Source: Deltaproteobacteria bacterium
Lineage (GTDB): Bacteria; Desulfobacterota; Desulfobacteria; Desulfobacterales; Desulfobacteraceae
Direction of reading: 5' to 3'
DNA length: 64,000 nucleotides
Assembly (NCBI GenBank): GCA_013151635.1
Contig: JAADHV010000067.1
Span: forward strand, 50,958 to 114,957
Shown here: piece after piece, positions 22,795 through 45,449 of the stretch
Numbering within the stretch: position 1 is the first letter of the stretch
Layout: every line of letters begins with the position of its first letter
Translations under genes and position numbers: made by a program
Notes under the pieces: generated by a model
What the model saw: only the letters and a program-made list of their open reading frames with translations
Told to the model about the DNA's origin: nothing
Databases searched by the model: none

Positions 22795-22836
22795 CTGGTT
22801 CATTTTTATCCATTTGCCTGGCTCATAATTAGCCAC
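22795..22836. promoter_or_regulatory. Tandem 19-bp dyads (putative activator sites), unit 1
   Basis: CTGGTTCATTTTTATCCAT (22795-22813) and CTGGCTCATAATTAGCCAC (22818-22836), 23-bp spacing; same motif recurs at five other units. Confidence 0.75.
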
Positions 22837-22899
22837 AAAGAGATTAGCCGTTTGCTTTTATATAAAATATATTCAATTATTACAGCATATTAACACCAG

Positions 22900-22915
22900 T
22901 GGCACGGTTGTTGAA
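22900..22915 (+). promoter_or_regulatory. Putative sigma-54 promoter, unit 1
   Basis: TGGCACGGTTGTTGAA: GG-N10-GA, close to consensus TGGCACG-N4-TTGCW. Confidence 0.75.
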
Positions 22916-22971
22916 ATAAATATTGCTAAAGTTTAAAATATTTTTAAAACTAAAACATAAAGGAGTTACTC

Positions 22972-23388
22972 ATGAAAAAAATAAGTATAAAAAAAGCAGC
23001 TTTTATAATTTCAGTTGTTGTTATCACGGGATTCAGCGGATATGCCCTGGCAAATATGGGATTTGGTTCCCACATGGGTGGAAATTACGGCAATAGTTAC
23101 CATATGAACGGGTCAAACGGGTACAATGGGTACCATATGGGTATGGGCAGCGGCTATGGCGGAATGGGCTATGGCCGGCATATGGCTAATGGAAACCACA
23201 TGTACGGCTCAGGACAGATGGGCTATGGCGGAATGGGCTATGGCATGAATAACGGTGGCCATATGTATAACAATGGATATGGGCAGAATCAAAACCAGGC
23301 GTACAATGGTATGAACCAGCAGAATAATAATTTTATGCAGAATTATTCAAATGGAAATTCAGATATAAAAAAGAATTTCAAACAATAA
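22972..23388 (+). CDS. Exported Gly/Met/His/Tyr/Asn-rich low-complexity protein
   Basis: Signal peptide (IKKAAFIISVVVITGFSGYALA), then repeats such as GYGGMGYG, HMYG, NGGHMY; RBS aaaggag. Confidence 0.8.
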   Translation: MKKISIKKAAFIISVVVITGFSGYALANMGFGSHMGGNYGNSYHMNGSNGYNGYHMGMGSGYGGMGYGRHMANGNHMYGSGQMGYGGMGYGMNNGGHMYNNGYGQNQNQAYNGMNQQNNNFMQNYSNGNSDIKKNFKQ

Positions 23389-23424
23389 GCTTTAACGTAA
23401 CACCCGCGTATTTTGCAGTCCCCT

Positions 23425-23459
23425 CTATAAAAGGCCGGAGAAATTCCGGTCTTTTATAG
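23425..23459. terminator. Bidirectional terminator hairpin
   Basis: ctataaaaggccgg-agaaatt-ccggtcttttatag between convergent genes. Confidence 0.8.
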
Positions 23460-24254: not shown

Positions 24255-24273
24255 GTGGATAAAATCTATCCAC
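24255..24273. promoter_or_regulatory. 19-bp dyad (putative activator site), unit 2
   Basis: GTGGATA-AAATC-TATCCAC, perfect 7-bp arms. Confidence 0.75.
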
Positions 24274-24357: not shown

Positions 24358-24373
24358 TGGCATATGTTTTGCT
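24358..24373 (+). promoter_or_regulatory. Putative sigma-54 promoter, unit 2
   Basis: TGGCATATGTTTTGCT: GG-N10-GC. Confidence 0.75.
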
Positions 24374-24414
24374 TATTTAATAAACAACAATAACTTTAAA
24401 AAGGAGGGCAAACA

Positions 24415-24675
24415 ATGAATAATCTACACACAAGTCAAAAAGGGAATCATAAAGATCCTGTTTGTGGAATGGATGTTTCCTCTAAAAATGATGCCATCAC
24501 TGCTGACTGGAATAATCAAACCTATTATTTTTGTGCAGAGCATTGCCGTAAGGAATTTGAAAAATCGCCTGAAACCTATCGCAAAAAGAGTTCCTTTTTT
24601 CTGAAAAGAGTCTGGGACAATTATCTTAGACGTCTGAACAAGGCTACCAATGGAAAACCCCAATGCTGTGATTAA
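24415..24675 (+). CDS. YHS-domain protein with C-terminal GKPQCC motif
   Basis: KDPVCGMDVSSKNDAITADWNNQTYYFCAEHCRKEFEKSPETY; C-term FFLKRVWDNYLRRLNKATNGKPQCCD. Confidence 0.85.
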   Translation: MNNLHTSQKGNHKDPVCGMDVSSKNDAITADWNNQTYYFCAEHCRKEFEKSPETYRKKSSFFLKRVWDNYLRRLNKATNGKPQCCD

Positions 24676-24680
24676 AGGAT

Positions 24681-24716
24681 AAAACAGCTCCGGCACCTTG
24701 GTACCGGAGCTGTTTT
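24681..24716 (+). terminator. Strong hairpin between YHS and SHOCT genes (terminator/attenuator)
   Basis: aaaacagctccgg...ccggagctgtttta, 13-bp perfect stem. Confidence 0.7.
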
Positions 24717-24733
24717 ATTAAAAGGAGGTTTAC

Positions 24734-25069
24734 ATGATTAAAAAAAATATTATAAAAAAAAGTGTTATCGTCTTTAGCCTTTCTCTTTGGACTTATAGCC
24801 TGGCTTTTGCAGATTGGCCGGAACAAGGAATAATTAATGGAGATTATCATATGATGGGAGCAGGTATGGGATGGATGATGTTCCTTTTCTGGGGCCTTGT
24901 GTTAGGGATTCTTATTCTTGTTATCCGCTGGGTTGTTAACCTGCCCAAAGAAGAGGAGCGTCCCCTGGGAACTCAAAAAACTGCGATAGAAATTCTTAAA
25001 GACCGGTTTGCAAAAGGAGAGATTGATATTACTGAATTTGAATCAAAAAAACAAGTTATTACTGATTAA
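24734..25069 (+). CDS. SHOCT-domain membrane protein (paralog 1)
   Basis: Signal/TM region with [60 protein letters not shown]. Confidence 0.8.
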
Positions 25070-25080
25070 AGGGGGTTTTT

Positions 25081-27318
25081 ATGTCTTCTGAAACCATTTC
25101 ACTGCCTGTTACCGGCATGAGTTGTTCAAATTGTGCGGCAAATATTGATAAGATGCTCCAAAATCTCAAGGGTGTTGAACATTCAAACGTCAATTTCGCT
25201 TCGGAAAGATTGTCAGTGGAATTTACCCCTTCTGAAGTTTCCCTGGATGAAATCGTTTTAGCTGTAAAGAAAATCGGGTATAGCCTTGTCCTTACAGACG
25301 ACGGCATGGATGAAGTAGATGCAGAAGAAATTGCCAGAGATGCTGAAATCAGGGACCAGACGAAAAAATTTACTGTGGGTGTTATTTTTGCTCTTCCATT
25401 GTTTGTTTTAAGCATGTCACGGGATTTTAACCTGATCGGCCAGTGGAGCCATGCTTCCTGGGTAAACTGGGGTTTTTTCCTGCTGGCGACACCGGTCCAG
25501 TTTTATACCGGATGGGACTATTATGTAGGTGCCATAAAAAGCCTTAGACATAAAAGCGCCAACATGGATTTGCTGATTGCCCTGGGATCATCGGTTGCTT
25601 ATTTTTATTCTCTTTCCATAATGTTGTTTGCAGGTTTAGGTGAACACGTCTATTTTGAGACTTCGGCCGTGATCATTACCCTGATAAAGCTTGGTAAGTT
25701 GCTTGAAGCAAGAACAAAAGGGAAAACCGGCGGTGCAATTAAAAAATTGATCGGCCTTGTGCCTAAAACTGCCACCATCCTTGATAATAATGTTGAGAAA
25801 CAGGTTCCTATTTCTGCGGTTAAAAAAGATGATATTGTCATCATCCGGCCAGGGGAAAGGATTCCTGTTGACGGCATTGTAATAGAAGGCAAATCTTCTG
25901 TTGACGAATCCATGCTCACAGGCGAGCCTCTTCCTGTTGACAAAAAGGTCAAGGATATGGTCACAGGGGGTACGGTCAATGGCCAGGGGCTTTTGCGGTT
26001 CAGGGCCCAAAGAGTTGGAAAAGATACTGCCCTGGCCCAGATCATAAGGCTGGTCCAGGAGGCCCAGGGAAGCAAAGCTCCCATACAGGCGCTTGCTGAC
26101 CGTGTTTCAGCATTTTTCGTGCCCGGCGTAATTATCATGGCAGTTATTACATTTTTTATCTGGTGGTCTGTTACAGGAGAATTTGTGCCCGCCATGATCC
26201 GTATGGTTGCCGTTCTTGTCATTGCCTGTCCCTGTGCCCTGGGGCTTGCAACACCTACCGCCATTATGGCCGGAACAGGAAAAGGAGCTGAAAACGGCAT
26301 ACTTTTCAAACGGAGCGAGGCACTTGAAAATGCTGCCAAACTCAAAACCATTGTATTAGATAAAACAGGTACTATTACCATGGGGAAACCTGCCGTAGTG
26401 GATATTGTTCCTTTATACCCTGATATTACAAGAGAGTTTATTCTCGCCCATGCAGCCTCTCTTGAAAAAGGTTCTGAACATCCAATCGGCAGGTCAATTG
26501 TCAAGCATGTTGAAAAGATGAAAATGAAACTTATGGACCCCATAGACTTTAAAGCCCTCAGTGGGTTCGGGGTTGAAGCTCTTATCAACGGAAGGCAGTA
26601 CAGGTTTGGGAAACCAGGGTGGTTTTTCAAGCAGGGATATGATTTTATTGATACAGATCATATTATTTCCTCTTTTCAGGATAAAGGCAGGACCGTGATG
26701 CTGCTGGCGGATGAAAAGAATATTCTCGGACTGATTTCCGTTTCCGATATACTGAAACCTGAATCAGTCAAAGCCATAAAAAGCCTGCACGATGAAAAAC
26801 TCAAAGTTGTCATGCTGACCGGAGACAATATCCAGACCGCAAATGCCATAGCCAAAGAAGTTAATGTGGATGAGGTCGTGGCCGAAGTTCAGCCTGAAGA
26901 AAAATCCGAGCAGATAAAAATTCTCCAGAAAGGTAAAGGCATGGTAGGTATGGTTGGGGACGGAATAAACGATGCCCCGGCCCTTGCCCAGGCAGATATA
27001 GGAATGGCTATTGGCACAGGCACGGATGTTGCCATAGAAACAGGGGATATTATTCTTGCAAGCGGCAGCCTGGAAGGGATTCCCAAGGCAATAAAAGTAT
27101 CCAGGAAAACTCTTAGAACGGTCCGGCAGAATCTTTTCCTGGCCTTTGTTTATAATGCTGTGCTGATTCCTGTAGCCGCAGGCATCCTGGCCCCTTTTGA
27201 AATGTTCCCGGATTTCCTGCGCCAGTTGCACCCCATCCTTGCCGCCCTGGCCATGGCTGCAAGCAGCATATCGGTCGTTACCAATAGTTTAAGGCTTTAC
27301 AGGGCAAAGATAATATAG
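25081..27318 (+). CDS. copA: Copper-type P1B ATPase
   Basis: HMA domain [69 protein letters not shown]. Confidence 0.93.
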
Positions 27319-27356
27319 AACAGCTGATTTAAGTTTACACTGAACGACCCTGCAAG

Positions 27357-27398
27357 GTGGATAATTATCAGCCAGTGACATGGCTAATTATTATCCAC
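27357..27398. promoter_or_regulatory. Tandem 19-bp dyads within a larger inverted repeat, unit 3 (may also terminate copA transcripts)
   Basis: GTGGATAATTATCAGCCAG (27357-27375) and ATGGCTAATTATTATCCAC (27380-27398), 23-bp spacing; the outer arms AAGGTGGATAAT/ATTATCCACCTT form a hairpin followed by T7. Confidence 0.7.
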
Positions 27399-27493
27399 CT
27401 TTTTTTATCAGGATACTTTTAAAACAGCTTCCCTGATTTTAAAAATACCATAACATACTGTTATTACAGTGTATCATAAGTCATGATAGCTGT

Positions 27494-27509
27494 TGGCATT
27501 TATCCTGCA
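27494..27509 (+). promoter_or_regulatory. Putative sigma-54 promoter, unit 3
   Basis: TGGCATTTATCCTGCA: GG-N10-GC. Confidence 0.7.
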
Positions 27510-27559: not shown

Positions 27560-28078
27560 ATGAGTAACAAAAAGATGATGCATACAAGAGGTCTTGTGAC
27601 AGCCGTGGATACTATAGGGTTTGCTGATGTTGTCATGGACCGGAAACAAGGTTGCACAGGCTGCGGATCAAAAAAAACAGATAATTGCAAGACATGCCTT
27701 TCCGGATCTAAGATCCAGGCAAAAGTAATAAATAAGAAAAATGCCCGGAAAGGAGATATCGTGTCTGTCAGCCTCAGTACCTCTAAAATTCTTAAAGGTG
27801 CAGCCGTTCTATACCTGATTCCTGTGGCAGGGCTTCTTATCGGTGTCTTTACCGGCCAGGGTTTTCATGATGTGTTGTCCATCAGTGATACTCTTGTCAC
27901 TATAATCCTGGGATTTGTCGGACTGGCTATGGGGTTTTATCTTGTAAGGCTGATTTCAGAGCATATGAATTCAGATCAGGATATGATGCCTTTTATAAGC
28001 AGGATCATATATTCGGGATCAAATACGGCTAAGTCTGATATGAAAACCAAAGCACAAACCTGTGCCGGATGCAGATAA
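27560..28078 (+). CDS. RseC/MucC-like membrane protein
   Basis: RGLVTAVDTIGFADVVMDRKQGCTGCGSKKTDNCKTC, two TM segments. Confidence 0.75.
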   Translation: MSNKKMMHTRGLVTAVDTIGFADVVMDRKQGCTGCGSKKTDNCKTCLSGSKIQAKVINKKNARKGDIVSVSLSTSKILKGAAVLYLIPVAGLLIGVFTGQGFHDVLSISDTLVTIILGFVGLAMGFYLVRLISEHMNSDQDMMPFISRIIYSGSNTAKSDMKTKAQTCAGCR

Positions 28079-28089
28079 GGAGGTTTCCC

Positions 28090-28698
28090 ATGGCCCTGAC
28101 AAAATTTCAGCAACAAGAGGCTTTAGCCTGCAATAATAAAATAAGAGTAACTACAAAAGACATAATCTTAAGAAAGAATAGTCAGGCAAAATCAGCATTT
28201 TTCACCAGTCCGGCACCTTATATTAAGGGCGGGCTTGCAGCCCTTGCTATTATAGGGTTTTACCTGGGGCTCTTAACGCTGACATCGGACTGGTATTTTG
28301 CCAAAGTACAATTTGAGGAATACCGGGTTTGGATATTGCTGTTAGCAGCCGGACTCGGAATCCAGGTTTTTCTTTATTCGATTTTAAGGCAGCATATTAA
28401 AAATATGAAGATAAAAGGTGCAGGGAAAACAGTGGCTGTTTCCGGCGGAGTTTCAACAGCCGGCATGGCAGCATGCTGTGCCCATTACCTTGTCACGGTT
28501 CTTCCGGTAATTGGAGTCCCGTTTGTCACAACAGCCATTGCATCACTTGAGCAATACCAGGCATTGTTTTTTCTTGCCGGCGTGATTTCAAATGTTTTCG
28601 GGATTTTATATATGCTGCATCTTATGAGGAGAAATACGATTATTTCGGTCCCCGGGGTCTTCACTAATAACAAGTATGATATAAGAACCGCGGGATAA
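28090..28698 (+). CDS. Hypothetical multi-TM protein
   Basis: Start at ATG 28090 after AAGGAGG; several TM helices, SGGVSTAGMAACCAHYLVTVLPVIG. Confidence 0.65.
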   Translation: MALTKFQQQEALACNNKIRVTTKDIILRKNSQAKSAFFTSPAPYIKGGLAALAIIGFYLGLLTLTSDWYFAKVQFEEYRVWILLLAAGLGIQVFLYSILRQHIKNMKIKGAGKTVAVSGGVSTAGMAACCAHYLVTVLPVIGVPFVTTAIASLEQYQALFFLAGVISNVFGILYMLHLMRRNTIISVPGVFTNNKYDIRTAG

Positions 28699-28720
28699 AA
28701 AAAATTTAAGGAGATAAATT

Positions 28721-29134
28721 ATGAAAAAAAATAAATTAAAAACAGTATTTACAGCTCTTATTGCTTTTGCACTTGCAACCGGAGGTTCTGTTGCAAGTGT
28801 ACATGCATACAATCGCCAGACAAATAAAGAAAAAAGCGTCAGGGTGGATGTCCTGCCAGTCACGCTTGCTTTGGGTGAAAAAGTTGTGTTTGATATAAGG
28901 ATGAACACCCATTCTGTCGGTCTTGATAATGATATCGTTTCAGGATCTGTTCTTAAGGATGATAAAGGTATTGCATACAACGCAATAAAATGGAATGGAA
29001 CACCGGGAGGTGGTCATCACCGGAAAGGAACCCTTGAATTTCCAGCCCTCAAAGGCAATCCCAAGTCGGTAACGCTTATTATAAAGGGTGTGTCCAATGT
29101 CCCTGAAAGAGTTTATAAATGGACACTTGAATAA
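28721..29134 (+). CDS. Small exported beta-rich protein
   Basis: Signal peptide; VDVLPVTLALGEKVVFDIRMNTHSVGLDNDIV...; RBS aaggag. Confidence 0.65.
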   Translation: MKKNKLKTVFTALIAFALATGGSVASVHAYNRQTNKEKSVRVDVLPVTLALGEKVVFDIRMNTHSVGLDNDIVSGSVLKDDKGIAYNAIKWNGTPGGGHHRKGTLEFPALKGNPKSVTLIIKGVSNVPERVYKWTLE

Positions 29135-29850: not shown

Positions 29851-30354
29851 TTAGCCAGCCTTCTTTTGTAAGAACTTACTTGCCAGTTTGTGAGTCTGCT
29901 TGATCTGCTTATTAGTAATGTCCCATTGGTGTAATTCGTTACAAATCAGTTCCTGGTGCTTTTTACTTATATCGCGTAACGCATTCCCGACAGACTTGCG
30001 CACATATTCACTGTCATCGTTTCGAAGTCGGCTCAATAAATTGATGGCTGCTTCCGGATGATTATTAAAGTAGTGGCGGCCTGTCCAGATTCTAAGCCCT
30101 TCTGTTACTGCCCGCCGCACGTTAGGCGAGGAATCTGCCAACCATTCTTTGATGACAGGAACAGCTTTTTCATAACCAATATCAGCGCAATATCTGTCAA
30201 TTGAGTGCATCTTTTGAATTGGCTGCGAGCCTGCCGAAAATGAATGTTGCCAATGAGCGAGCCTGATATATTTCTGAAGAAAATAGTTGTCTGGCAATGC
30301 AAAGGCTCTCTTCGGCAGGCTGTTCATCTTTGTTGGAATTTCCTTAGTGATCAC
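29851..30354 (-). CDS. Short DNA-alkylation-repair (AlkD-like) HEAT-repeat protein
   Basis: WLADSSPNVRRAVTEGLRIWTGR...LLSRLRNDDSEYVRKSVGNALRDISKKH. Confidence 0.7.
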   Translation of the reverse strand: MITKEIPTKMNSLPKRAFALPDNYFLQKYIRLAHWQHSFSAGSQPIQKMHSIDRYCADIGYEKAVPVIKEWLADSSPNVRRAVTEGLRIWTGRHYFNNHPEAAINLLSRLRNDDSEYVRKSVGNALRDISKKHQELICNELHQWDITNKQIKQTHKLASKFLQKKAG

Positions 30355-30854
30355 CGGAGGGGTCTCCAGAACTTTGCGTCAACCGCTTTTCTTACCGAGA
30401 TGATGTCCATGCCGCTCCGGTATTTGGAAACCGCATAAAATGCCTGGTCCATGCATATTCCGCAATTTTCAGCGTGAGTATCCACATAGCAGGTCAAAAG
30501 GCTCTTGTGCCCGAAAGTTTCCTTGCAATTACAATAACAATACATGCTGTCCAGGAGCTCCGGGTTTTCCCTGGCGATTTCGTAGGCCCTTGCAACATTG
30601 CCTGTAAACCTTGCAGGTGAAAGTGTCGGGCGTTTTTCCCCGCCTCTCAGGATGGAAGGGTCTGAAAGGGCTATGGCCTGTTTGACTTTTGATTTTTCAG
30701 AAGCATTGCCTTTATTGGTAAAATCATAATAAAAAAAACCGCCTGCGATAAGCAAAAAAACTGCAACAATGATTAAGGGCAGTTTGCTTTTACCGGTTTT
30801 TACCGCAGGGTTTTTCCTGCCTGAAAGTTTTTTCTTTCTTTTTTTCTTGCTCAT
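30351..30854 (-). CDS. PCYCGC-like exported/TM protein
   Basis: N-terminal TM; SMYCYCNCKETFGHKSLLTCYVDTHAENCGICMDQA. Confidence 0.7.
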   Translation of the reverse strand: MSKKKRKKKLSGRKNPAVKTGKSKLPLIIVAVFLLIAGGFFYYDFTNKGNASEKSKVKQAIALSDPSILRGGEKRPTLSPARFTGNVARAYEIARENPELLDSMYCYCNCKETFGHKSLLTCYVDTHAENCGICMDQAFYAVSKYRSGMDIISVRKAVDAKFWRPLR

Positions 30855-30887
30855 TATAATCCTCCGTTATGGTTAAAATAAAATTGT

Positions 30888-32900: not shown

Positions 32901-33399
32901 AGGAGCCGATTACCTTTTGGATTATAATCCCGTTTTTATCTATAATAAAACTTTCCGGTACCCCTGTGGCCTGGTATGCCTTTTGTACGGCCCCCCTTTT
33001 ATCCAGCAGAGCCTTGAAATGAAGATTGTATAATTTCATGAAAGGGTAGACGGCTTTTTTCCCTTTAGTGTCAATACTGACAGCCAGGATCTGGAAATCA
33101 TCCTGGTTGAATTTTTTATAAAGTTTTTCTATTGAAGGCATTTCATCTATGCAGGGCCGGCACCATGTGGCCCATATATTTAATAAAACAAGTTTGCCCC
33201 TGAAGTCGGACAGGCTGACAGTTTTCCCTTCCAGATCCGGCAATGAAAAGTCAGGTGCCATTGTGCCGACTGCTACAGACGGTGGTTTTGTAAATGTAAA
33301 ATCCATATTATTGCCGATTAAAAAAAAGAGAACCAAAATCCCGGTGACAAATAAGAAAAATAATATCCCGGACTTGTATTTTGTTGATAGTTCACCCAT
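32827..33399 (-). CDS. TlpA/ResA-like thioredoxin
   Basis: APDFSLPDLEGKTVSLSDFRGKLVLLNIWATWCRPCIDEMPSIEKLY. Confidence 0.9.
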   Translation of the reverse strand: MGELSTKYKSGILFFLFVTGILVLFFLIGNNMDFTFTKPPSVAVGTMAPDFSLPDLEGKTVSLSDFRGKLVLLNIWATWCRPCIDEMPSIEKLYKKFNQDDFQILAVSIDTKGKKAVYPFMKLYNLHFKALLDKRGAVQKAYQATGVPESFIIDKNGIIIQKVIGSFDWSSPEIFQYLKKQLDKPYVKKQ

Positions 33400-33444
33400 A
33401 GCAGCTTTGACCTTTTATTGTATATTCAGGGGTAAAGTTAAAGT

Positions 33445-33999: not shown

Positions 34000-34015
34000 T
34001 TCTTGTCCCTTTACA

Positions 34016-34116: not shown

Positions 34117-34118
34117 GA

Positions 34119-34415: not shown

Positions 34416-34511
34416 GTGGCCTGGTGATTTGCATCATCCTCTGATATAATGGGTTTAATACACGTGTATTATTTGAATGTGTATCCCTAATTTTTTATTT
34501 AAAAAAGCATA

Positions 34512-34553
34512 CTGCCTAATTTTTAGCCAGTTTGGTGGATAAAAATCAGGCAG
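34512..34553. promoter_or_regulatory. Tandem 19-bp dyads, unit 6, inside a long inverted repeat
   Basis: CTGCCTAATTTTTAGCCAG (34512-34530) and GTGGATAAAAATCAGGCAG (34535-34553), 23-bp spacing; flanked by GCATACTGCC/GGCAGTATGC arms. Confidence 0.65.
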
Positions 34554-34554
34554 T

Positions 34555-35336: not shown

Positions 35337-36113
35337 CTATTGCAGAAGGTCTATGAGCAGGACCGTTATATCGTCATTGCCATGGGATTTTATTGTTTTT
35401 CTGATTAAATTTTCAGCTTTTCTTTTTATGCTGGTTTTTGAATTTAAAATCAGTTCCATATCCTTTTGGGCAAGGATTTTATGAAGTCCGTCTGTGGATA
35501 ACATAACCAGGTCATTTTTTTTAAGGCGAACCGATCCTGTTTCAGGTTCGCACTCTCCGTGACCAATGCATTGATCAAGAATATGTCGTGAATAATGGGT
35601 GGCAAGCTGTTCTTTTGTTATTTCTCCCTCTTCTAACAGGAACCTTGCAAAGGTTTGATCTTTGGTTACCTGTTTCAGCCTGCCTTTTCGAAAAATATAT
35701 AGCCTGGAGTCTCCTACATGGGCCCAGAATGCTTTATGGCCTTTTATGAACACTGCGGTCATTGTTGTTCCCATGCCTTCAAATGCAGGGTTCCTGATGG
35801 ACTCTTTTAAAATAGTTTTATCTGATTTTTCAAATATTTTTTTTAGAAAAATCAACTCTTTGCCCTGCCTGGTGCCTGTGGTTCCGGAAAAACCTGAAAC
35901 AGCCATCTGGGCCGCAATATCACCGGCAGCCTCTCCACCCATGCCATCGGCCGCAACTGCGATAAGATGGCCTTTCTTTAATGCTTTTACAAAGAACCTG
36001 TCCTGGTTTTCCTTTCTTGTCACACCTTTTTGTGACATTGCAAAAGAATTTGTTTGACTGTTGTTTAAAACAAGTGTCTGATGATTAAAATTTTTTTTTG
36101 GCCCTGATATCAT
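35337..36113 (-). CDS. PP2C-type serine/threonine phosphatase
   Basis: NQDRFFVKALKKGHLIAVAADGMGGEAAGD; WAHVGDSRLYIFR; STDGLHKIL; GNDDITVLLIDL. Confidence 0.9.
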   Translation of the reverse strand: MISGPKKNFNHQTLVLNNSQTNSFAMSQKGVTRKENQDRFFVKALKKGHLIAVAADGMGGEAAGDIAAQMAVSGFSGTTGTRQGKELIFLKKIFEKSDKTILKESIRNPAFEGMGTTMTAVFIKGHKAFWAHVGDSRLYIFRKGRLKQVTKDQTFARFLLEEGEITKEQLATHYSRHILDQCIGHGECEPETGSVRLKKNDLVMLSTDGLHKILAQKDMELILNSKTSIKRKAENLIRKTIKSHGNDDITVLLIDLLQ

Positions 36114-36131
36114 AGAATTTATAACCTGAAC

Positions 36132-37979
36132 TTATTTTATGGAAATTTTTGTTCTGAATCCTACATCGGGAAACCCTTCCCATTGCTGGCGCATGGCAGG
36201 CTCTGAACCGGCTTTTAATATTTTTAAATCCATGACCCCGGAAAAAAGGCGGATATCTGCTGCTGGTTCCTGTTCTGGCTTGCTTTCAATACGGACCCAT
36301 TCCTTAATCTTCAGGCCCATTTGGTCCAGTACCTGGACCTCTTCGGGTCTGGTTTGTTTTTCTTTGGCCCCATGCATCATAGAAAAAGAGGGGTCCTGGT
36401 TTTTTTGTTTATCAAGGGGGTGTTCTTTTATATATTTATCAAGGTGGAATCTATAGGAAAATCTCCATTCAGGGTCGGTCAACAAGGATCTGCCATAGTA
36501 TTTTGCATATGCCAGGGCTCCGTGATAAGTGACTCTTGTTACAGGATTCCCAGCCGCCTCCGGGTCTTTAAGATGAAACCTTTGATGTTTATAGATAATC
36601 TGGTCTTCTTTTTGTGTGCCGGGCCCAAGATAAAGAAGAATAATTCCATTATGTTTTACAATGCCGTTTTTTACAATAATCCGGTCTTTGATATCATTTA
36701 GGAAATCCACAAAAAGATAATTGCTGATTTTGTTTTCATCAATATAAAAAAGCAGGTGGGGGGCAGCAGGGCTTTCCCCTGTCTCAGCCTGGTTATCAAC
36801 ACTTCCTGTCAATATCATTCTGGAACCGTCCATGGCGATTATGGATTTTTTCAGATCCTGCGGGTTTGCCGGAAGAGTGATGGCTTTGTCGTTGGCAACA
36901 GGTTTTTTTTCTGTAAATTCCAGGGGTCCTGCATTTTTTTGTGAGCCAATTATGTGCCAGGCTGTCATCCCGGCAATGGATAACAAGGTTAAAATAATTC
37001 CAATCCAGATCCACTTGCTGTGTGCCTGCACAAATTCAGCAGCTTTTAATGGCAGTGTGTCCGGGTCTTCGGGCGTAACCTTGTTCAATGCCAGCGTCTT
37101 TAAAAGCTCGGCCCTTAATTCTGCAACAGACTGGAAACGGGAAGCTTTGTCTTCTGCCGTGGCTTTCTGGATGATTGCATCCATGCCTTTTAAAAACGGG
37201 ACATCAATATTTTTGTAATTTTTAAGGCTTACGGTTTTCATGGGTAATGTTTTTTGATTCAGCCTTCCATCTATCGCTTCAAACAACATTTTGCCCAATG
37301 CATAAATATCCGCAGTCTGGTCGGCTTTCCTGAAGTCGGAGAATTGTTCCGGGGCCATGTAGGTGAGGGTGCCTTTCATTTCCATGGAATTTGAGACAGC
37401 CTTCATCCTGCAGGAACGGGCCAGGCCGAAATCAGCAATTTTCGGGATTTCACCATCCATAAAAATATTTTCAGGCTTCAGATCCCTGTGGAAGATATTG
37501 TGGTTATGCATGGCCTCAACCCCTTCGAGTATAGCAAGGAAATAGGACTCAATCCAGGCAGCATAAAGTTCGGGATCATCATTGAGCCCGTCATCAGACA
37601 TTGTGAATCTCAGGGAATTGCCGGGTATATATTCCATAACAATATATTCTACTGATCCCGGCTGGTCTGACCGGGCATTTCCCCCGCCTTTATTCCCGCC
37701 GTAATCAAAAATATTTAAAATATTCGGGTGGCGGACCTGTGCCATGGTCTGCACTTCCCGCTGGAAGCGTTTAAAAGCGATCTTAAGCTCTTCAGGATCA
37801 TTTTCTAATTCCTGCAGCATGTCTTCGGATATTGTCTTTACAGCTACATCCCTTTTAAGATTGATCTGGTGTGCCCGGAAAACCTTGCCCATGGCTCCTT
37901 GCCCAATCATCTCAATGATTATCCATTTATTATCAATCACTGTTCCCGGTTTGAACAGGCTGTCATTATTTGTAGCCAT
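36132..37979 (-). CDS. Serine/threonine protein kinase with TM and C-terminal FGE-sulfatase-like region
   Basis: GQGAMGKVFRAHQINLKRDVAVK, HRDLKPENIFMDG, DFGLARS; C-term NPVTRVTYHGALAYAKYYGRSLLTDPEW. Confidence 0.88.
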   Translation of the reverse strand: MATNNDSLFKPGTVIDNKWIIIEMIGQGAMGKVFRAHQINLKRDVAVKTISEDMLQELENDPEELKIAFKRFQREVQTMAQVRHPNILNIFDYGGNKGGGNARSDQPGSVEYIVMEYIPGNSLRFTMSDDGLNDDPELYAAWIESYFLAILEGVEAMHNHNIFHRDLKPENIFMDGEIPKIADFGLARSCRMKAVSNSMEMKGTLTYMAPEQFSDFRKADQTADIYALGKMLFEAIDGRLNQKTLPMKTVSLKNYKNIDVPFLKGMDAIIQKATAEDKASRFQSVAELRAELLKTLALNKVTPEDPDTLPLKAAEFVQAHSKWIWIGIILTLLSIAGMTAWHIIGSQKNAGPLEFTEKKPVANDKAITLPANPQDLKKSIIAMDGSRMILTGSVDNQAETGESPAAPHLLFYIDENKISNYLFVDFLNDIKDRIIVKNGIVKHNGIILLYLGPGTQKEDQIIYKHQRFHLKDPEAAGNPVTRVTYHGALAYAKYYGRSLLTDPEWRFSYRFHLDKYIKEHPLDKQKNQDPSFSMMHGAKEKQTRPEEVQVLDQMGLKIKEWVRIESKPEQEPAADIRLFSGVMDLKILKAGSEPAMRQQWEGFPDVGFRTKISIK

Positions 37980-38132: not shown

Positions 38133-38174
38133 CTGGTTTATTTTTATCCACCCTGCTGGTTAAAATATATCCAC
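38133..38174. promoter_or_regulatory. Tandem 19-bp dyads, unit 4
   Basis: CTGGTTTATTTTTATCCAC (38133-38151) and CTGGTTAAAATATATCCAC (38156-38174), 23-bp spacing. Confidence 0.75.
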
Positions 38175-38248: not shown

Positions 38249-38265
38249 TGGCACGCTTGTTGATA
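38249..38265 (+). promoter_or_regulatory. Putative sigma-54 promoter, unit 4
   Basis: TTGGCACGCTTGTTGAT: GG-N10-GA. Confidence 0.75.
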
Positions 38266-38315: not shown

Positions 38316-38657
38316 ATGAGTGCAAAAAAAATATTTTTAATTATTGGATTGGCACTAGCAGGATTTGCAGGCGTGTATTTTTTAAACATAAACACTGGCT
38401 TTTTCAACTCTTTTTTTTATAATGAATGGAATCCTATGGGTCCCGGATTTTATTACGGGCATATGATGACAGGAGGAATTATGCATTTTATTTTCTGGCT
38501 GGTCTTAATCTTTTTCCTGATTTCAGCTTTGGGCGGCAAAAAATCTTCGCTTGCCCACACCACGGATTCAGCCGTTGAAATCCTGAAAAAAAAATATGTC
38601 AACGGAGACATCGGCAAAGTGGAATTTGCCGATAAAATGAAACATTTAAATGGATAA
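38316..38657 (+). CDS. SHOCT-domain membrane protein (paralog 2)
   Basis: YGHMMTGGIMHFIFWLVLIFFLISAL...SAVEILKKKYVNGDIGKVEFADKMKHL. Confidence 0.75.
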   Translation: MSAKKIFLIIGLALAGFAGVYFLNINTGFFNSFFYNEWNPMGPGFYYGHMMTGGIMHFIFWLVLIFFLISALGGKKSSLAHTTDSAVEILKKKYVNGDIGKVEFADKMKHLNG

Positions 38658-38686
38658 TATAATAATTCAGTTAGGGAGAATAGATT

Positions 38687-39064
38687 ATGATTAAAAAAAC
38701 GGTTTTTCAATTAACTACATTTACCGCCTTTGTTCTTATTGCAGCAGGGGTACTTTTTTTTAACCCTGTAGCTGCCATGGCATGCGGGTATGGGAATTCG
38801 GGCGGCAGTGATTTCGTGCCGCAAAGGCAGGTACCCAACGGGGGGAACCAGGTGACGGGGAACCAGGCTGCAGCCGCCATTGACCAGGAACAGGCCAAAA
38901 CCATAGTTAAAAACCATGTCAGCAAGCTTAACCCTGATCTTGTTGTCGGTAATATTAATGACGCAGGTGGTTTTTTTGAGGTTGAAGTAATGAATAAAGA
39001 CAATGAAGTGGTTCAAATGCTTGGGGTGGATAAATATTCCGGACGGCTGATGCTGATAAACTGA
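38687..39064 (+). CDS. Exported PepSY-like protein
   Basis: Signal peptide; DQEQAKTIVKNHVSKLNPDLVVGNINDAGGFFEVEVMNKDNEVVQMLGVDKYSGRLMLI. Confidence 0.65.
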   Translation: MIKKTVFQLTTFTAFVLIAAGVLFFNPVAAMACGYGNSGGSDFVPQRQVPNGGNQVTGNQAAAAIDQEQAKTIVKNHVSKLNPDLVVGNINDAGGFFEVEVMNKDNEVVQMLGVDKYSGRLMLIN

Positions 39065-39076
39065 TAAAAAGAGACT

Positions 39077-39547
39077 ATGACGATGGATAACCAGAAATCG
39101 GATATTATATATTTTTTTTTGATAATATTTATCATCCTGGCACTGCCCTTTGGCATATCTGCTTATGACAGGCATGTCTGGGACAAACGAACACCAAAGG
39201 ATGCGAAAATATTTGACCTGACCGGGAATACACACAAAGGCTGGGTCCTTGGCAGTATAGACGCTGTTGACGTTTTAACAGGCAGTCTGGGCCTGAAGAA
39301 ATTTAACCCCCCGGTCATTAAGGTGCAAAAAGGGGATCTCGTGGTGCTGAAACTTACAAGCAGCGATGTGGTACATGGCTTCAGCCTTAAGGATTTTGGC
39401 GTATTTATCAATGACGGGATTCAACCGGGCAGGCCCAGGACAGTGTCTTTTATTGCTAATAAAGAGGGCCGTTTTACCTTTTCGTGCAATGCAATTTGCG
39501 GCAGTTATCATGAAAATATGACCGGCACTATTATTGTCACAGCATGA
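39077..39547 (+). CDS. Membrane-anchored CuA-type cupredoxin (COX2-like)
   Basis: VHGFSLKDFGVFINDGIQPGRPRTVSFIANKEGRFTFSCNAICGSYHENMTG: CxxxCxxxHxxM CuA ligand set. Confidence 0.8.
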   Translation: MTMDNQKSDIIYFFLIIFIILALPFGISAYDRHVWDKRTPKDAKIFDLTGNTHKGWVLGSIDAVDVLTGSLGLKKFNPPVIKVQKGDLVVLKLTSSDVVHGFSLKDFGVFINDGIQPGRPRTVSFIANKEGRFTFSCNAICGSYHENMTGTIIVTA

Positions 39548-39662
39548 TAAAAGGTGAATTCAGGTATAAATTTGTCATAATGCTTGAAACTGGTTTTTCA
39601 TAATGATAAATTATATAAACTTATCTTTAAAAAAAACAAATACCAATTCCCGGAGGCAGTTT

Positions 39663-41348
39663 ATGAGAAAGACTTTCTTTTTCACCAAATCAGTATATTT
39701 TATCGTCGTGCTTGCAGCAACTCAATTGATCATGCCGATGAGGTCATGGTCGTCCCAAAAAAAGAATGTATCCGTCATCCGGGGGGTGGTGGCTTCCCAG
39801 TACGGGATGGTGAAAGATGCCAGGGTCAGGATTGCAGGGAGCAAAGATTTTACACTGACGGATATCAATGGCAGGTTTACCGTTGAAACCCCTTTGTTCA
39901 GCGGCAGGCCCATTAAAATTACAGCGGGCAAGGACGGCTGGTTCAATAATTCGGTCAATGCAATTCCGGGAAACTTTGATGCCAATATTATGCTGTACCC
40001 CATTCCTGCCAATGACAATCCGGATTACAGGTTTATATCGCCTGCTGTTTGTGCAAGATGCCACAACACTCTTGCAAAGTACTGGGATAAATCCAAGATG
40101 GCCCACACAACATCCAATATAAAAGTACTGAATATGTATAAGGGTACAGATGCCACGGGCCAGAAACTTGCCGGGCCCGGGTTTAAAATTGATAACCCAG
40201 GCCAGGACGGATCTTGTGTGTCCTGCCATGCACCTTCTGCCGCAGTATCAAGGGGTGGGGCCACAGACATCGAAAGCGCACTCTGGTCGCCTAAAACCGA
40301 ATGGGACGGGGTGAGCTGTGATTTTTGCCATAAGATCCGGAAAGTTATTAAAACACGCAATACCCCCAGCCTGTTTAAACCGCTCATGAGGCGGCAAACC
40401 CCTTACCAGGGCAACTCAATCCTTATTTTCGGCCCATATGACGATGTGGTCAACCCTGTTATGTCGGCTTCCCACAGCCCGATTTTTGACAAGGGTAATT
40501 ATTGCGCGACCTGTCACAGCCAGGTCAAAAAACTTGACGGCAAAACCACCTGGGACAGGAACAAAGTTTATTCGGATGCGGAATGGAAAGGATTTGATAT
40601 AGGCGATGATTCAGTTATCCCGGTTCAGACCACCTACCAGGAATGGAAAAGCTGGCAGACAGGCCTTGCTCCCGGTGACAGCAACAAGGGCAAAAAATGC
40701 CAGGATTGCCACATGAGCTGGAGAAAAGCAATGCTGCCCTATGACAATTATATTATCGACGGCCAGGCAAGGAACATGTGGGGGACAAAAAGAGATCCCG
40801 GAAATATCCGGCCCCATCAGTTTGACGGCGGGACAAAGATACAATTGAAAACCGCACTTTCAATGGAAATGGAAGGCAAGATCAATGACGGTATCCTTGA
40901 TATAAATGTTTTTATTACAAATACCAACGGCGGCCATTGGGTACCAACAGGAGATCCGGCAAGGAGCGTGATGCTGGTTCTTTCTGCCACAGATTCAAAA
41001 GGCAGGCCGTTAAAGAAATTAAAAGGTGAAGAACTGCCGGCCTGGACAGGAGTCGGGAAAATTGAAAACGGCGATTATGCAGGCCTTCCCGGGAAAATAT
41101 TTTCAAAGGTGTTAAAGGACGGAAAAGGCAACATCAATGTACCCTTCTGGAGGGCCACTGCCGTTGCAAGGGACACAAGGATCCGGCCTAAAACCACGGT
41201 CACCTTGAAGTATCGATTTAAGATTGAAGACCCGGACGATGAACCTATGGCAGAAGCAAAACTGATTTACCGGCCGTTCATGAAATCTTTGGCCCAGATA
41301 AAAAAATGGGAAAGCAAGGATATTTTAATCACTGAAAGCGCATGGTAG
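39663..41348 (+). CDS. Pentaheme cytochrome c-like exported protein
   Basis: Five CXXCH motifs (CARCH, CVSCH, CDFCH, CATCH, CQDCH); start at ATG 39663 after cggaggcag. Confidence 0.85.
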   Translation: MRKTFFFTKSVYFIVVLAATQLIMPMRSWSSQKKNVSVIRGVVASQYGMVKDARVRIAGSKDFTLTDINGRFTVETPLFSGRPIKITAGKDGWFNNSVNAIPGNFDANIMLYPIPANDNPDYRFISPAVCARCHNTLAKYWDKSKMAHTTSNIKVLNMYKGTDATGQKLAGPGFKIDNPGQDGSCVSCHAPSAAVSRGGATDIESALWSPKTEWDGVSCDFCHKIRKVIKTRNTPSLFKPLMRRQTPYQGNSILIFGPYDDVVNPVMSASHSPIFDKGNYCATCHSQVKKLDGKTTWDRNKVYSDAEWKGFDIGDDSVIPVQTTYQEWKSWQTGLAPGDSNKGKKCQDCHMSWRKAMLPYDNYIIDGQARNMWGTKRDPGNIRPHQFDGGTKIQLKTALSMEMEGKINDGILDINVFITNTNGGHWVPTGDPARSVMLVLSATDSKGRPLKKLKGEELPAWTGVGKIENGDYAGLPGKIFSKVLKDGKGNINVPFWRATAVARDTRIRPKTTVTLKYRFKIEDPDDEPMAEAKLIYRPFMKSLAQIKKWESKDILITESAW

Positions 41349-41366
41349 GAAAAGGAGAAGTTAAAA

Positions 41367-41990
41367 TTGAATACAAAGCGAATTTTTATCCTGGGATTGA
41401 TTTTTTTGATAACCACAAGCACCAATGCCCTTGCATCTGATTTGTTGTCCGGCAACATCCGGGCCCAGGGATTGCGAAAACAAAATAATATACTGGTATA
41501 CCTGGCCCGTGCGAAGGGCCCCTTACCCTCTTTGCAGAAAGAGTTTGTCCTGGATCAGAACAACCTTACCTTTTCTCCGCATATCCTGGTGATCCCGGAA
41601 GGCGCAACTGTGTCATTTCCAAATAATGACAAAGTGGATCACAATGTTTTTTCCCTTTCCAGGACGAAAAAATTCAATTTCGGCAGTTACAAGCCGGGAG
41701 AAAGCCATAAGGTTGTTTTTGACAAACCCGGTATTGTGGAATTAAGGTGTGACCTCCATTCAGAGATGCTTTCTTATATCCTGGTCATGAAAAGCCCCTA
41801 TTATGCTCTAACCGATAAAAAAGGAAATTTTTTCATTGATGTTACAGGGCTTGCACCTGGTAAATACATTCTTAAAACCTGGCACGAAAAGCTCAAAAAC
41901 AGCAAAGTCTCGGTTAAACTGCCCGCGGCTTTAAAAAGTAAACTTGCCATTAAACTGAAAAGAGGGGCACCAGGAGTGCTGTATAAATAA
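41367..41990 (+). CDS. Plastocyanin-like cupredoxin / carboxypeptidase-regulatory-like protein
   Basis: IPEGATVSFPNNDKVDHNVFSLSRTKKFNFGSYKPGESHKVVFDKPGIVELRCDLHSEMLSYILV; TTG start after aaaggagaag. Confidence 0.8.
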   Translation: MNTKRIFILGLIFLITTSTNALASDLLSGNIRAQGLRKQNNILVYLARAKGPLPSLQKEFVLDQNNLTFSPHILVIPEGATVSFPNNDKVDHNVFSLSRTKKFNFGSYKPGESHKVVFDKPGIVELRCDLHSEMLSYILVMKSPYYALTDKKGNFFIDVTGLAPGKYILKTWHEKLKNSKVSVKLPAALKSKLAIKLKRGAPGVLYK

Positions 41991-42734
41991 ATGATGACTA
42001 TGGAAATATCAATGATGATGGCCCTGACAGCGGGGATCGTGTCCTTTCTGTCTCCCTGTGTGCTTCCCCTGGTGCCGGGATATGTTTCTTTTATTTCAGG
42101 GGTGTCCATCAATGAAATTACGGATATAAAGCCCGGATCAGGACTGTTTGACAAAACCAGGATTAGTGTTATTTTCAATGCCCTGCTGTTTATCGCGGGT
42201 TTTTCCCTGGTGTTTGTCGCACTTGGAGCATCTGCCACATGGATCGGATCATATTTTAGTGCCAACCTGGGTATGCTGACCAAAATATCCGGCCTGGTTA
42301 TTATTTTTTTCGGGTTGATCAAATTAAACATTATCCGTATCAACTGGTTTTTTAAAGACATGAGGTTCCACATCAATACCGGGAAAAAAAGCGCTTTTTT
42401 TTCCCTTGTCCTGGGCATGGCCTTTGCTTTTGGCTGGACCCCCTGTACAGGGCCGATCCTTGGTGCTATCCTCACCTATGCCGGAACCGTTGACCAGGTG
42501 CATTCAGGTATTCTTCTTTTATTGATCTATTCAGCCGGGCTCGGCATTCCCTTTCTTCTGACTGCTGTTTTTATCCAGTATTTTTTCAAGGTTTTTAACC
42601 GGGTTAAAAAGTATTTGTGGATCATTGACAAAGGCACCGGTCTGATATTGATTCTTATGGGGATTTTGATCTTTAATGACTCTTTTACGGCGATTACCGG
42701 CTGGTTTAATGCTTTCAGCGGTTTTGCCCTATAG
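41991..42734 (+). CDS. CcdA-type transmembrane thiol-disulfide protein (second copy)
   Basis: ALTAGIVSFLSPCVLPLVPGYVSFISGVS; AFGWTPCTGPILGAIL. Confidence 0.9.
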   Translation: MMTMEISMMMALTAGIVSFLSPCVLPLVPGYVSFISGVSINEITDIKPGSGLFDKTRISVIFNALLFIAGFSLVFVALGASATWIGSYFSANLGMLTKISGLVIIFFGLIKLNIIRINWFFKDMRFHINTGKKSAFFSLVLGMAFAFGWTPCTGPILGAILTYAGTVDQVHSGILLLLIYSAGLGIPFLLTAVFIQYFFKVFNRVKKYLWIIDKGTGLILILMGILIFNDSFTAITGWFNAFSGFAL

Positions 42735-42749
42735 ACAAAGCTTTGTGCA

Positions 42750-43322
42750 ATGAAAAATATCAAGTCTCAAAATAAGCGGTTTATTGTTTTTTTCGTCAGT
42801 CTTTTTGCGGTCTTGCTTTTGCCTTTAAGTTCCGCATATCCCAAAGATGTTAAACTGGATAACCAGTTTAAATCTTTGGGGATTATCAGACTTGCCGGGA
42901 TTGCTCCCCCGGCAGGTCATGATTTTTTCGACATGGATGGCAAACTTTTAAGGCTTTCAGATTTTAAAGGGAAAATTGTTTTATTAAATTTCTGGACAAC
43001 GTGGTGTCCTGAGTGTGTGTATGAGATGCCGATATTTGAAAAGCTGCATAAAAAAATAAATAATAAAGGTTTAATAATCCTTGCTGTTGACCTTAAAGAA
43101 TCTCAAAGTAAAGTAATAAAATTTATCAAAAAACACAAAATCACCTTTAAGATTGCCATGAATAAGAAAGGTGATATGGGCAGGGCATTCGGGATACGTT
43201 CCATTCCCACCACCTTTATTCTGAACCGGGAAGGCGGGTTGATAGGGAGGGCCATGGGCGCCCGCCGCTGGGACAGCCAGAAATCCATTGACCTGTTTGA
43301 ATATCTTTTGAAAAACTTTTAA
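42750..43322 (+). CDS. TlpA/ResA-like thioredoxin
   Basis: LRLSDFKGKIVLLNFWTTWCPECVYEMPIFEKL; FGIRSIPTTFILNREG. Confidence 0.9.
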   Translation: MKNIKSQNKRFIVFFVSLFAVLLLPLSSAYPKDVKLDNQFKSLGIIRLAGIAPPAGHDFFDMDGKLLRLSDFKGKIVLLNFWTTWCPECVYEMPIFEKLHKKINNKGLIILAVDLKESQSKVIKFIKKHKITFKIAMNKKGDMGRAFGIRSIPTTFILNREGGLIGRAMGARRWDSQKSIDLFEYLLKNF

Positions 43323-43348
43323 CAAAACCCGGATTTAAGAGAAATTTA

Positions 43349-45280
43349 ATGAAATCAAAAACCATACGTGCCATTATTATCATATTTTTGTTTTTCGTAG
43401 CAATAAGCCTGCCGAGATTTCTTACAAAAATACCCTTTGGGAACAAAACCCGCGTAATTAACCTGACAGCTAAAAAATACGGTTACACTCCGGGGCGGAT
43501 TTTTGTCAACAAAGGAGATACCATCATTATCAAACCTAACTCCAAAGATGTAACCCACGGTTTTTTACTGGATGGTTATCCTGTTGAGTTCATCATCAAA
43601 CAAGGCGGTATCGCATACCAGAAATATGAATGGACAGATGATGACGGCGCCCTTCATACAGACTGGGACAAAGTAAATGAAATAGAATTTGTTGCAGACA
43701 AGCCGGGAAAATTTATTTTCCGCTGCACCAGGGTTTGCGGAAACCTTCATCCTTTTATGACAGGTGAGCTGATTGTGGCACCCAACACCCTGTACCACAA
43801 AATGGTTTTTCTTTCCATCTGGGTTATAATAAGCCTGTTTTTGTGGTTTAGAGTCAAAACTCCCCCCTTGAAAAACCAGGGCAGCCTTATTAACCTTTTT
43901 GATATCATACCCGGGTTGAAATGGCTTTTTAAACGCAGGAGCTATCAGTTTTTCCTGCTTTTGCCGGGATTTATTGTTTTTTATCTGTTCATCATTGCAA
44001 GCCTTAAAGGGACCCCTGTGGGAAACCATAATATCACAATTATTATTGTCTGGATTTTATGGTGGTTCCTTTTGAAATCCGTGTTTGTTCCCCTGGGCGG
44101 AAGATTATGGTGCATGATCTGCCCTTTGCCGGCACCTGCCGAATGGATCAGCAGAAAAGCCTTTACCGCGGTACACTTCATTAAAAACCCCATTAAAGGC
44201 AAACATCACAAATACACAGGGCTCGGCCTTGACTGGCCAAAAAAATTAAGAAACATGTGGCTCCAGAACATTATTTTTCTTATGATGATTTCTTTTGGCA
44301 TTATCCTGATCACAAGGCCTGTGGCGACCGCCATCATGTTCCTGCTCATCCTTGGGGTTACCCTGATTTCAGCCTTTATTTTCAGGAACCGGGTTTTCTG
44401 TCTTTATCTATGCCCTGTAGGGGGGTTCCTGGGAAATTATTCAATGGCCTCCATGACAGCTTTGCGGGTTATTGACAAGGATATCTGCAAAAAGCATAAG
44501 AACAAATGCTGCATCAAGGGGAGCCCTGACGGCTGGGGATGCCCCTGGAACCAGTATCCCGGCACCATGGACCGAAACAATCTTTGCGGGCTCTGCACGG
44601 AATGTGTGAAAACCTGCCCTGAAAATAATATTGGATTCTTTTTAAGGCCCTTTGGATCTGACAGGGCGGTAAAAAACTATTCTGAAATGTATAACATACT
44701 CATTATGCTGGTTGTGGCCATTGCATTCAGTATCACCATGCTGGGCCCGTGGGGATTTATCAAAGAGGCGGCAAATATTACGGAATCCCGGCATATTTCT
44801 TCTTTTTTAATTTATATCGGTTTATTATACACCATGTCCCTTGCGGTATTTCCCGGCATATTTATTTTTATTTCCAGGTTGTCAGCCAGGCTTTCCGGAT
44901 ATAAAGGAGATGTAAAACCATTGGTTTTGACTCTTTCCTATATGCTGATCCCAGTGGGTATTTTTGCCTGGATTGCCTTTAGCCTGCCCTCTGTCATGGT
45001 GAATTATTCCTATGTGCTGAATGTATTGTCAGACCCCTTGGGATATGGATGGAATCTTTTTGGAACCGCGGATTTCCATTATAATCCCTTCCACCCTGAG
45101 ATCATTCCATTGATCCAGGGCCTTTTGCTCCTCACAGGGCTTTATTTTGGCGTCAACCGGGTAAATCTGTCCTTAGCAGGGTTGATTCCTGATCCTTTAA
45201 AAAGAAAGAAAGCACTTTTACTGCCATCACTCTTTGCACTTGGCGTGGTCAATATTTTTTTAAAACTCTATCTTGGATAA
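43349..45280 (+). CDS. CuA-type cupredoxin fused to NapH/CcoG-like polyferredoxin
   Basis: N-term GKFIFRCTRVCGNLHPFMTGEL (CxxxCxxxHxxM); then GGRLWCMICPLPAPAEWIS, FCLYLCPVGGFLG, CGLCTECVKTCPENN with TM helices. Confidence 0.85.
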   Translation: MKSKTIRAIIIIFLFFVAISLPRFLTKIPFGNKTRVINLTAKKYGYTPGRIFVNKGDTIIIKPNSKDVTHGFLLDGYPVEFIIKQGGIAYQKYEWTDDDGALHTDWDKVNEIEFVADKPGKFIFRCTRVCGNLHPFMTGELIVAPNTLYHKMVFLSIWVIISLFLWFRVKTPPLKNQGSLINLFDIIPGLKWLFKRRSYQFFLLLPGFIVFYLFIIASLKGTPVGNHNITIIIVWILWWFLLKSVFVPLGGRLWCMICPLPAPAEWISRKAFTAVHFIKNPIKGKHHKYTGLGLDWPKKLRNMWLQNIIFLMMISFGIILITRPVATAIMFLLILGVTLISAFIFRNRVFCLYLCPVGGFLGNYSMASMTALRVIDKDICKKHKNKCCIKGSPDGWGCPWNQYPGTMDRNNLCGLCTECVKTCPENNIGFFLRPFGSDRAVKNYSEMYNILIMLVVAIAFSITMLGPWGFIKEAANITESRHISSFLIYIGLLYTMSLAVFPGIFIFISRLSARLSGYKGDVKPLVLTLSYMLIPVGIFAWIAFSLPSVMVNYSYVLNVLSDPLGYGWNLFGTADFHYNPFHPEIIPLIQGLLLLTGLYFGVNRVNLSLAGLIPDPLKRKKALLLPSLFALGVVNIFLKLYLG

Positions 45281-45319
45281 TTTACCAGGGATGTTCACCT
45301 CAATGTTTGAAATTTATGG

Positions 45320-45360
45320 GTGGATAATATTTATTCACCCTCTGGATCATTTTTATCCAT
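45320..45360. promoter_or_regulatory. Tandem 19-bp dyads, unit 5
   Basis: GTGGATAATATTTATTCAC (45320-45338) and CTGGATCATTTTTATCCAT (45342-45360), 22-bp spacing. Confidence 0.75.
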
Positions 45361-45433
45361 TTTAATGCTTTTTTTGCTTTTATATACGCTTGCCAATATT
45401 CAATCTTTCTTTATATCGGGGTTATGGCTTGCC

Positions 45434-45449
45434 TGGCATGAAACTTGAA
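45434..45449 (+). promoter_or_regulatory. Putative sigma-54 promoter, unit 5
   Basis: TGGCATGAAACTTGAA: GG-N10-GA. Confidence 0.7.

Follow-up and report, generated by a model that had tools for sequence, protein, structure and literature searches.

The window considered here, a stretch of 64 kb, corresponds to positions 50958-114957 of contig C76 in genome G000 (4.2 Mb in 136 contigs, 95% complete). It contains six transcription units, comprising about 20 genes, which share a sigma-54 -24/-12 promoter element preceded by one or two copies of a 17-bp dyad with the consensus TGGnT-N7-AnCCA (Table 1; 11 copies ahead of six elements). A first-pass annotation, made from the DNA letters only, had described 19-bp dyads; their presence upstream of all six units has been confirmed, but not their length. 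The six -24/-12 elements which it had quoted are present exactly as given and, as it had noted, the dyads are paired in five units, 22-23 bp apart, unit 2 having a single copy. Eight of the 11 dyads follow the strict consensus. Those of unit 4 each have one degenerate arm (TGCCT and AGGCA), and in copy a of unit 6 the terminal arm reads ATTCA.

The genes found behind these promoters mostly encode copper proteins. The secreted protein of unit 1 shares the Gly/Met/His-rich part of its orthologues, without their helical domain; proteins of this type located behind dyad promoters in three relatives (G014, G030 and G031) score above the cut-off for PF13801, like ZraP. The ATPase of unit 2 possesses the motifs CPC, NX6YNX4P and MX2SS of the P1B-1 (Cu+) group, a set diagnostic of Cu+ export in the established classification. 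In unit 5, two proteins (39077-39547 and 43349-45280) contain the CuA motif CX3CX3HX2M. A haem-copper oxidase (COX1) was not found in this genome, 95% complete, nor, apart from the two CuA-like domains, was NosZ or its catalytic domain.

Table 1. Dyads, sigma-54 elements and target genes of the six units in the window, and the candidate regulatory pair on contig C87 (a, distal copy; b, proximal copy).
Feature	Position	Strand	Description
Dyad 1a	22796-22812	+	TGGTTCATTTTTATCCA; unit 1, distal
Dyad 1b	22819-22835	+	TGGCTCATAATTAGCCA; unit 1, proximal
Sigma-54 element, unit 1	22900-22914	+	-24/-12
Unit 1	22972-23388	+	Secreted Gly/Met/His-rich protein (22972)
Dyad 2	24256-24272	+	TGGATAAAATCTATCCA; unit 2, single copy
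Sigma-54 element, unit 2	24358-24372	+	
Unit 2	24415-27318	+	YHS protein, SHOCT protein, CopA-type ATPase
Dyad 3a	27358-27374	+	TGGATAATTATCAGCCA; within T-tailed hairpin
Dyad 3b	27381-27397	+	TGGCTAATTATTATCCA
Sigma-54 element, unit 3	27494-27508	+	
Unit 3	27560-29134	+	RseC/MucC-family protein, membrane protein, small secreted protein
Dyad 4a	34536-34552	-	TGCCTGATTTTTATCCA; distal
Dyad 4b	34513-34529	-	TGGCTAAAAATTAGGCA; proximal
Sigma-54 element, unit 4	34400-34414	-	
Unit 4	29851-34358	-	DUF2933 protein (34119-34358), TlpA-like thioredoxin, NapH-like Fer4_5 membrane protein, PCYCGC and HEAT proteins; predicted operon extent
Dyad 5a	38134-38150	+	TGGTTTATTTTTATCCA
Dyad 5b	38157-38173	+	TGGTTAAAATATATCCA
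Sigma-54 element, unit 5	38249-38263	+	
Unit 5	38316-45280	+	First part: small membrane protein, secreted protein, CuA-motif cupredoxin (39077), pentahaem cytochrome c (39603). Rest: plastocyanin-like protein (41367), CcdA/DsbD-TM, TlpA-like thioredoxin, CuA-motif cupredoxin fused to NapH-like ferredoxin protein (43349)
Dyad 6a	45321-45337	+	TGGATAATATTTATTCA
Dyad 6b	45343-45359	+	TGGATCATTTTTATCCA
Sigma-54 element, unit 6	45434-45448	+	
Unit 6	45538-46060	+	54-aa Cys-tailed protein resembling the tail of the YHS protein; SHOCT protein
Histidine kinase	G000:C87:13062-14822		Candidate sensor
Response regulator	G000:C87:14815-16188		Candidate activator; Response_reg, Sigma54_activat and HTH_8 domains

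Specificity and geometry of the operator

A symmetric position weight matrix (PWM) was built from the 11 dyads, and sites of at least 18.5 bits were counted against a first-order Markov null. Twelve such sites were observed in the window, against 0.05 per 64 kb under the null, which produced zero pairs at 21-24 bp. Eleven of them lie in the six promoters, and with matrices built by leaving out one promoter at a time, every left-out site still ranked in the top 12 among about 64,000 positions. The first-pass annotation had held that a PWM matching random intergenic DNA would speak against a regulon; the matrix shows no such behavior. The twelfth site, a 19.9-bit match (TGGATAATTTTGATGCA, 20842-20858), falls within the coding sequence 18980-21631 and is probably due to chance.

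Allowing up to two mismatches, the paired pattern occurs at four places genome-wide, all of them in the window. Outside it, 15 single-dyad matches were retrieved, none of which is a convincing additional member: all score 17.3 bits or less, 12 are located within open reading frames of at least 100 aa, and for none was a consensus -24/-12 element found at a usable distance. In this assembly, the regulon thus appears to be essentially confined to this cluster.

The distances between dyad centers and the -24 GG are, for units 1 to 6, 74/97, 95, 106/129, 108/131, 85/108 and 84/106 bp, within 1 bp of those initially reported. These distances had been proposed to vary mostly in steps of about one helical turn, and the six proximal ones are indeed phased (Rayleigh p = 0.013 at 10.5 bp and 0.007 at 11 bp). 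For a set of 29 promoters from the window and its relatives, which are not independent of one another, the distances cluster at 72-75, 84-86, 94-97 and 105-112 bp, with a single one at 122 bp (phasing p ~2e-6). Such a geometry is the arrangement expected of an enhancer-binding protein (EBP) which would reach the promoter by DNA looping.

Conservation and the candidate activator

Paired dyads, at one mismatch or fewer, are present in 13 of the 86 genomes of the family. In the Desulfobacula group (G031, G037, G039, G040, G048 and G053), dyads and sigma-54 elements precede orthologues of units 1-6, while in the Desulfobacter group (G012, G014, G028 and G030) they are located ahead of genes coding for ZraP-like, SHOCT, YHS and RseC-like proteins. 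The recurrence of the dyads in orthologous promoters runs against another outcome which had been anticipated to contradict a regulon, namely a lack of conservation in relatives. Even the single dyad of unit 2 is retained as such in G031, G037, G040 and G053. In a comparison of 50 promoter-linked dyads, the A/T core and positions T1, G2, T5, A13, C16 and A17 proved near invariant, and G3/C15 are conserved at 78%.

In agreement with the first-pass annotation, no EBP was found in the window. The genome encodes a single RpoN and more than 40 EBPs, three of which belong to the ZraR clade. Among the latter, an NtrC-type response regulator encoded with a histidine kinase on contig C87 can be proposed, with good confidence, as the activator of the six units, based on genomic neighborhood and co-occurrence. 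Orthologues of this regulator sharing at least 76% identity are found in 12 of the 86 family genomes (11 full-length proteins and a truncated copy in G043), the next-best homologues in the family being only 60% identical. The unit-5 protein 43349 is present in seven genomes and the YHS protein in nine, all of which are among these 12 (Fisher 1.5e-7 and 4.8e-10, respectively). In eight genomes (G012, G014, G028, G030, G031, G037, G039 and G043), the regulator or the pair lies beside a dyad-bearing target. It is located next to the SHOCT gene of unit 6 in G031, G037 and G039, closes the unit 5 operon in G043, and stands beside YHS, ZraP-like or SHOCT genes in G012, G014, G028 and G030. The SHOCT gene is also its neighbor in G040, where no dyad was found for this gene.

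The operator appears restricted to the C87 clade, since the homologue of the unit-5 operon in G190, which belongs to another family, is preceded by a -24/-12-like element but no TGG dyads. In a phylum-wide sample, no EBP outside the family exceeded 63% identity to the regulator, and no operator was found within ~1.5 kb of the closest ones, which are ~60% identical. On contig C76 itself, the nearest EBP (C76:5523, ~45 kb beyond the window) was considered and rejected: it is 46% identical to the candidate, falls outside the ZraR clade and has no association with the regulon in relatives.

Relatives retrieved in the kinase alignment include Desulfobacula metagenome-assembled genomes, such as Candidatus Desulfobacula maris (L141) and Desulfobacula sp. 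(L142), and the cultured Desulfobacter vibrioformis DSM 8776 (L145), which suggests that the genome belongs to the genus Desulfobacula.

Relation to ZraSR and other sigma-54 systems

Over its full length, the C87 regulator is 50% identical to E. coli ZraR, 46% to AtoC and 40% to NtrC. It falls in a clade (support 100/99, although the bootstrap is not fully settled) which includes E. coli ZraR and excludes AtoC and NtrC. The best match of the kinase is ZraS, with 47% identity over the kinase part and 26% over the sensor part (BLASTP, E 2e-18). Neither protein reaches the NCBIfam equivalog cut-off for ZraR or ZraS, and the pair is therefore not a ZraSR equivalog.

The resemblance extends to the operator. 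The E. coli zraP-zraS intergenic region contains two dyads, CGAGTAAAAATGACTCG and CGAGTCATTTTTACTCA (CGAGT-N7-ACTCG and CGAGT-CATTTTT-ACTCA), 31 bp apart, which we interpret as the ZraR sites. They share with the dyads described here the 5-7-5 geometry, the AT core and even a CATTTTT core. In contrast, the arms differ (TGGnT here versus CGAGT), as do the spacing (22-23 versus 31 bp) and the recognition helix (SRRTLHLKLKDYG versus TRKTLLAKLSR); when scored with the present PWM, the E. coli sites fall below 0 bits. In G037 (L066, 16107-16450), dyads separated by 31 bp, as in E. coli, precede a gene coding for a secreted Met/His/Asn-rich protein which resembles the 22972 protein of the window and is an apparent extra member of the regulon in this genome.

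A second and canonical zraP-zraSR locus is present in the same genome on contig C7 (L191, 5269-9138), where zraP is divergent and a separate sigma-54 element is present; the TGGnT dyad is absent from its intergenic region, where the best score is 9.9 bits. The C87 pair is thus best seen as a ZraSR paralogue with an altered operator specificity and an enlarged regulon. An apparently intermediate arrangement has been noticed in a Desulfobacterales genome (CG23, L150), in which a divergent ZraP-like gene and a SHOCT gene lie next to a ZraSR-like pair (kinase 40%, regulator 54%), without a TGGnT dyad.

Like ZraPSR (HydHG) of E. coli and Salmonella, the C87-type system involves sigma-54 promoters and, in relatives, ZraP-family genes behind dyad promoters. 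Unlike zraSR, which is autoregulated and divergent from zraP, the C87 pair has no dyad and is unlinked to its putative targets here, and copper proteins dominate these targets. The scale differs as well, with ~20 genes in six units compared to two or three target units for E. coli ZraR, namely zraP, zraSR and perhaps mgtA (PMC7657598).

The closest functional precedent is CorSR from Myxococcus xanthus. CorSR is a copper-responsive NtrC-type two-component system which controls a copper cluster with several putative sigma-54 promoters, a cupredoxin, CopA and a cytochrome-type protein; it differs in being encoded within its own target operon, which also contains a multicopper oxidase (PMC3707914). 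As a copper-responsive sigma-54 system had already been published, this kind of regulon is less novel than the first-pass annotation judged; besides CorSR, the latter had included neither the ZraR-like operator geometry nor a ZraSR-family regulator. Also in M. xanthus, the NtrC-like regulator of NmpRSTU is associated with paired dyads (GCGCA-N5-TGCGC) upstream of sigma-54 promoters, but has its own operator, phosphorelay and targets, an oxygen-utilisation regulon (PMC11841059). The sigma-54 regulome of the sulfate reducer Desulfovibrio vulgaris Hildenborough comprises 37 EBPs, palindromic upstream activating sequences and tGGcacg/tTGCt promoters, with no assigned copper regulon (PMC4641369). 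No published description of this operator or regulon was found in the open-access literature (searched for ZraSR, copper and Desulfo, and for Desulfobacula and copper). While the mechanism class is known, the new elements are the pairing of regulator and operator, the scale of the regulon and the proposed copper electron-transfer module.

Proposed mechanism and competing explanations

It is likely that the six units constitute one sigma-54 regulon driven by the C87 ZraSR-family system in response to a copper-linked signal. The kinase has two hydrophobic segments flanking residues ~31-204, a predicted periplasmic region with invariant GMMNM and MM..M...MH-type positions. Through this Met/His-rich loop domain, it would sense Cu(I) or copper-linked thiol stress, the most likely periplasmic signals, and would phosphorylate the regulator. 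Dimers of the latter would then occupy the 17-bp dyads, usually two of them separated by two helical turns, and oligomerize; the bound regulator may loop onto the sigma-54 polymerase at the -24/-12 element. The predicted output is copper export together with a periplasmic copper/haem electron-transfer program.

Several observations weigh against this proposal. The C87 pair is unlinked to the regulon in its own genome. In none of the genomes examined do the genes for the kinase and regulator have a dyad upstream, contrary to the initial expectation that the promoter of the activator would itself carry the site, which argues against autoregulation. The loop motif of the regulator is GSFTGA instead of GAFTGA, although this variant is counted among the functional ones in D. 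vulgaris (PMC4641369). The region downstream of the unit-5 dyads in G043 revealed no -24/-12 element at the usual distance, and G076 (78% complete) possesses a dyad/sigma-54 promoter before a ZraP-like gene without a regulator orthologue of at least 76% identity. Finally, the co-occurrence counts come from phylogenetically non-independent genomes, even though the patchy distribution of the system within the genus argues against simple shared ancestry.

With regard to the signal, the regulon and its activator could be correctly assigned and yet respond to general envelope or periplasmic thiol stress, or to zinc or silver. ZraSR of E. coli is zinc-responsive, and a broader function in envelope stress has been suggested for it (PMC7657598); an RseC-like protein in unit 3 as well as thioredoxin-like proteins in several units would fit such a role. 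We consider this somewhat unlikely, as the targets are mostly copper proteins (the P1B-1 Cu+-ATPase, CuA and plastocyanin-like domains, and YHS). The conserved Met/His loops of the sensor suit Cu(I), but, as comparable residues are present in E. coli ZraS, they do not discriminate copper. For the C87 system, the most likely signal is still copper or copper-linked thiol stress.

A different EBP might also target the dyads, for instance one of the other ZraR-clade regulators of this genome (encoded on contigs C18 and C7), the C87 pair merely traveling along with the regulon. The large number of EBPs and the unlinked position of the pair leave room for this explanation, which is nonetheless improbable. 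C18-type regulators (~57-60%) are widespread, being present in most genomes of the family, but the target operons are only found where the C87 clade occurs; the C7 regulator adjoins its own zraP, which lacks the dyad; in relatives, only C87-clade genes neighbor dyad promoters; and the dyads are missing within ~1.5 kb of the ~60%-identical EBPs of other families.

It is very doubtful that the dyads bind a regulator independent of sigma-54, such as a repressor or a MerR/ArsR-type sensor, with fortuitous -24/-12 matches. Although AT-rich palindromic operators are common in other regulator families, all six elements are phased and correctly oriented, and relatives have them too, with varied sequence; relaxed -24/-12 matches number just 13 over 64 kb, both strands included; and tandem dyads 70-130 bp upstream are typical of EBPs and unusual for a repressor. 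Paired dyads being only intrinsic terminators or repeats is barely credible: the unit 3 and 4 pairs do form strong T-tailed hairpins (27354-27405, z -6.0, and 34503-34560 on the minus strand, z -8.4), but those of units 1 and 5 fold no better than shuffled sequences, there is just one dyad in unit 2, and what is conserved across promoters and genomes is the sequence as well as its pairing. Since their hairpins are strong, the unit 3 and 4 pairs double as intrinsic-terminator-like structures, and within the proposed sigma-54 regulon these elements may be both terminators of upstream transcription and enhancers.

More tentatively, a duplicated ZraSR with a changed operator might run a complete copper-dependent electron-transfer module, that is, an undescribed copper redox pathway with a dedicated sigma-54 regulon. 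Its parts could be the two CuA-type cupredoxins, the plastocyanin-like protein, the pentahaem cytochrome, the NapH-like ferredoxin proteins and thiol/copper assembly factors. The regulon thereby draws attention to CuA-type proteins in a sulfate reducer in which neither a haem-copper oxidase nor NosZ, their usual partners, was found.

ZraSR has no settled physiological role, as the E. coli system controls little beyond itself and zraP. Here, beside a canonical zraPSR, the paralogue has a large and interpretable target set which points to copper and periplasmic electron transfer. It would assign a function to one of the many, mostly orphan, EBPs of this genome, and it offers a natural experiment on how, following a duplication, the operator of an EBP is altered and a regulon acquired.

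The cluster also includes, between units 4 and 5, genes for a Ser/Thr kinase with an FGE-like domain and for a PP2C phosphatase (35337-37979, minus strand), whose orthologues are likewise found in the regulon or next to it in G030 and G037.

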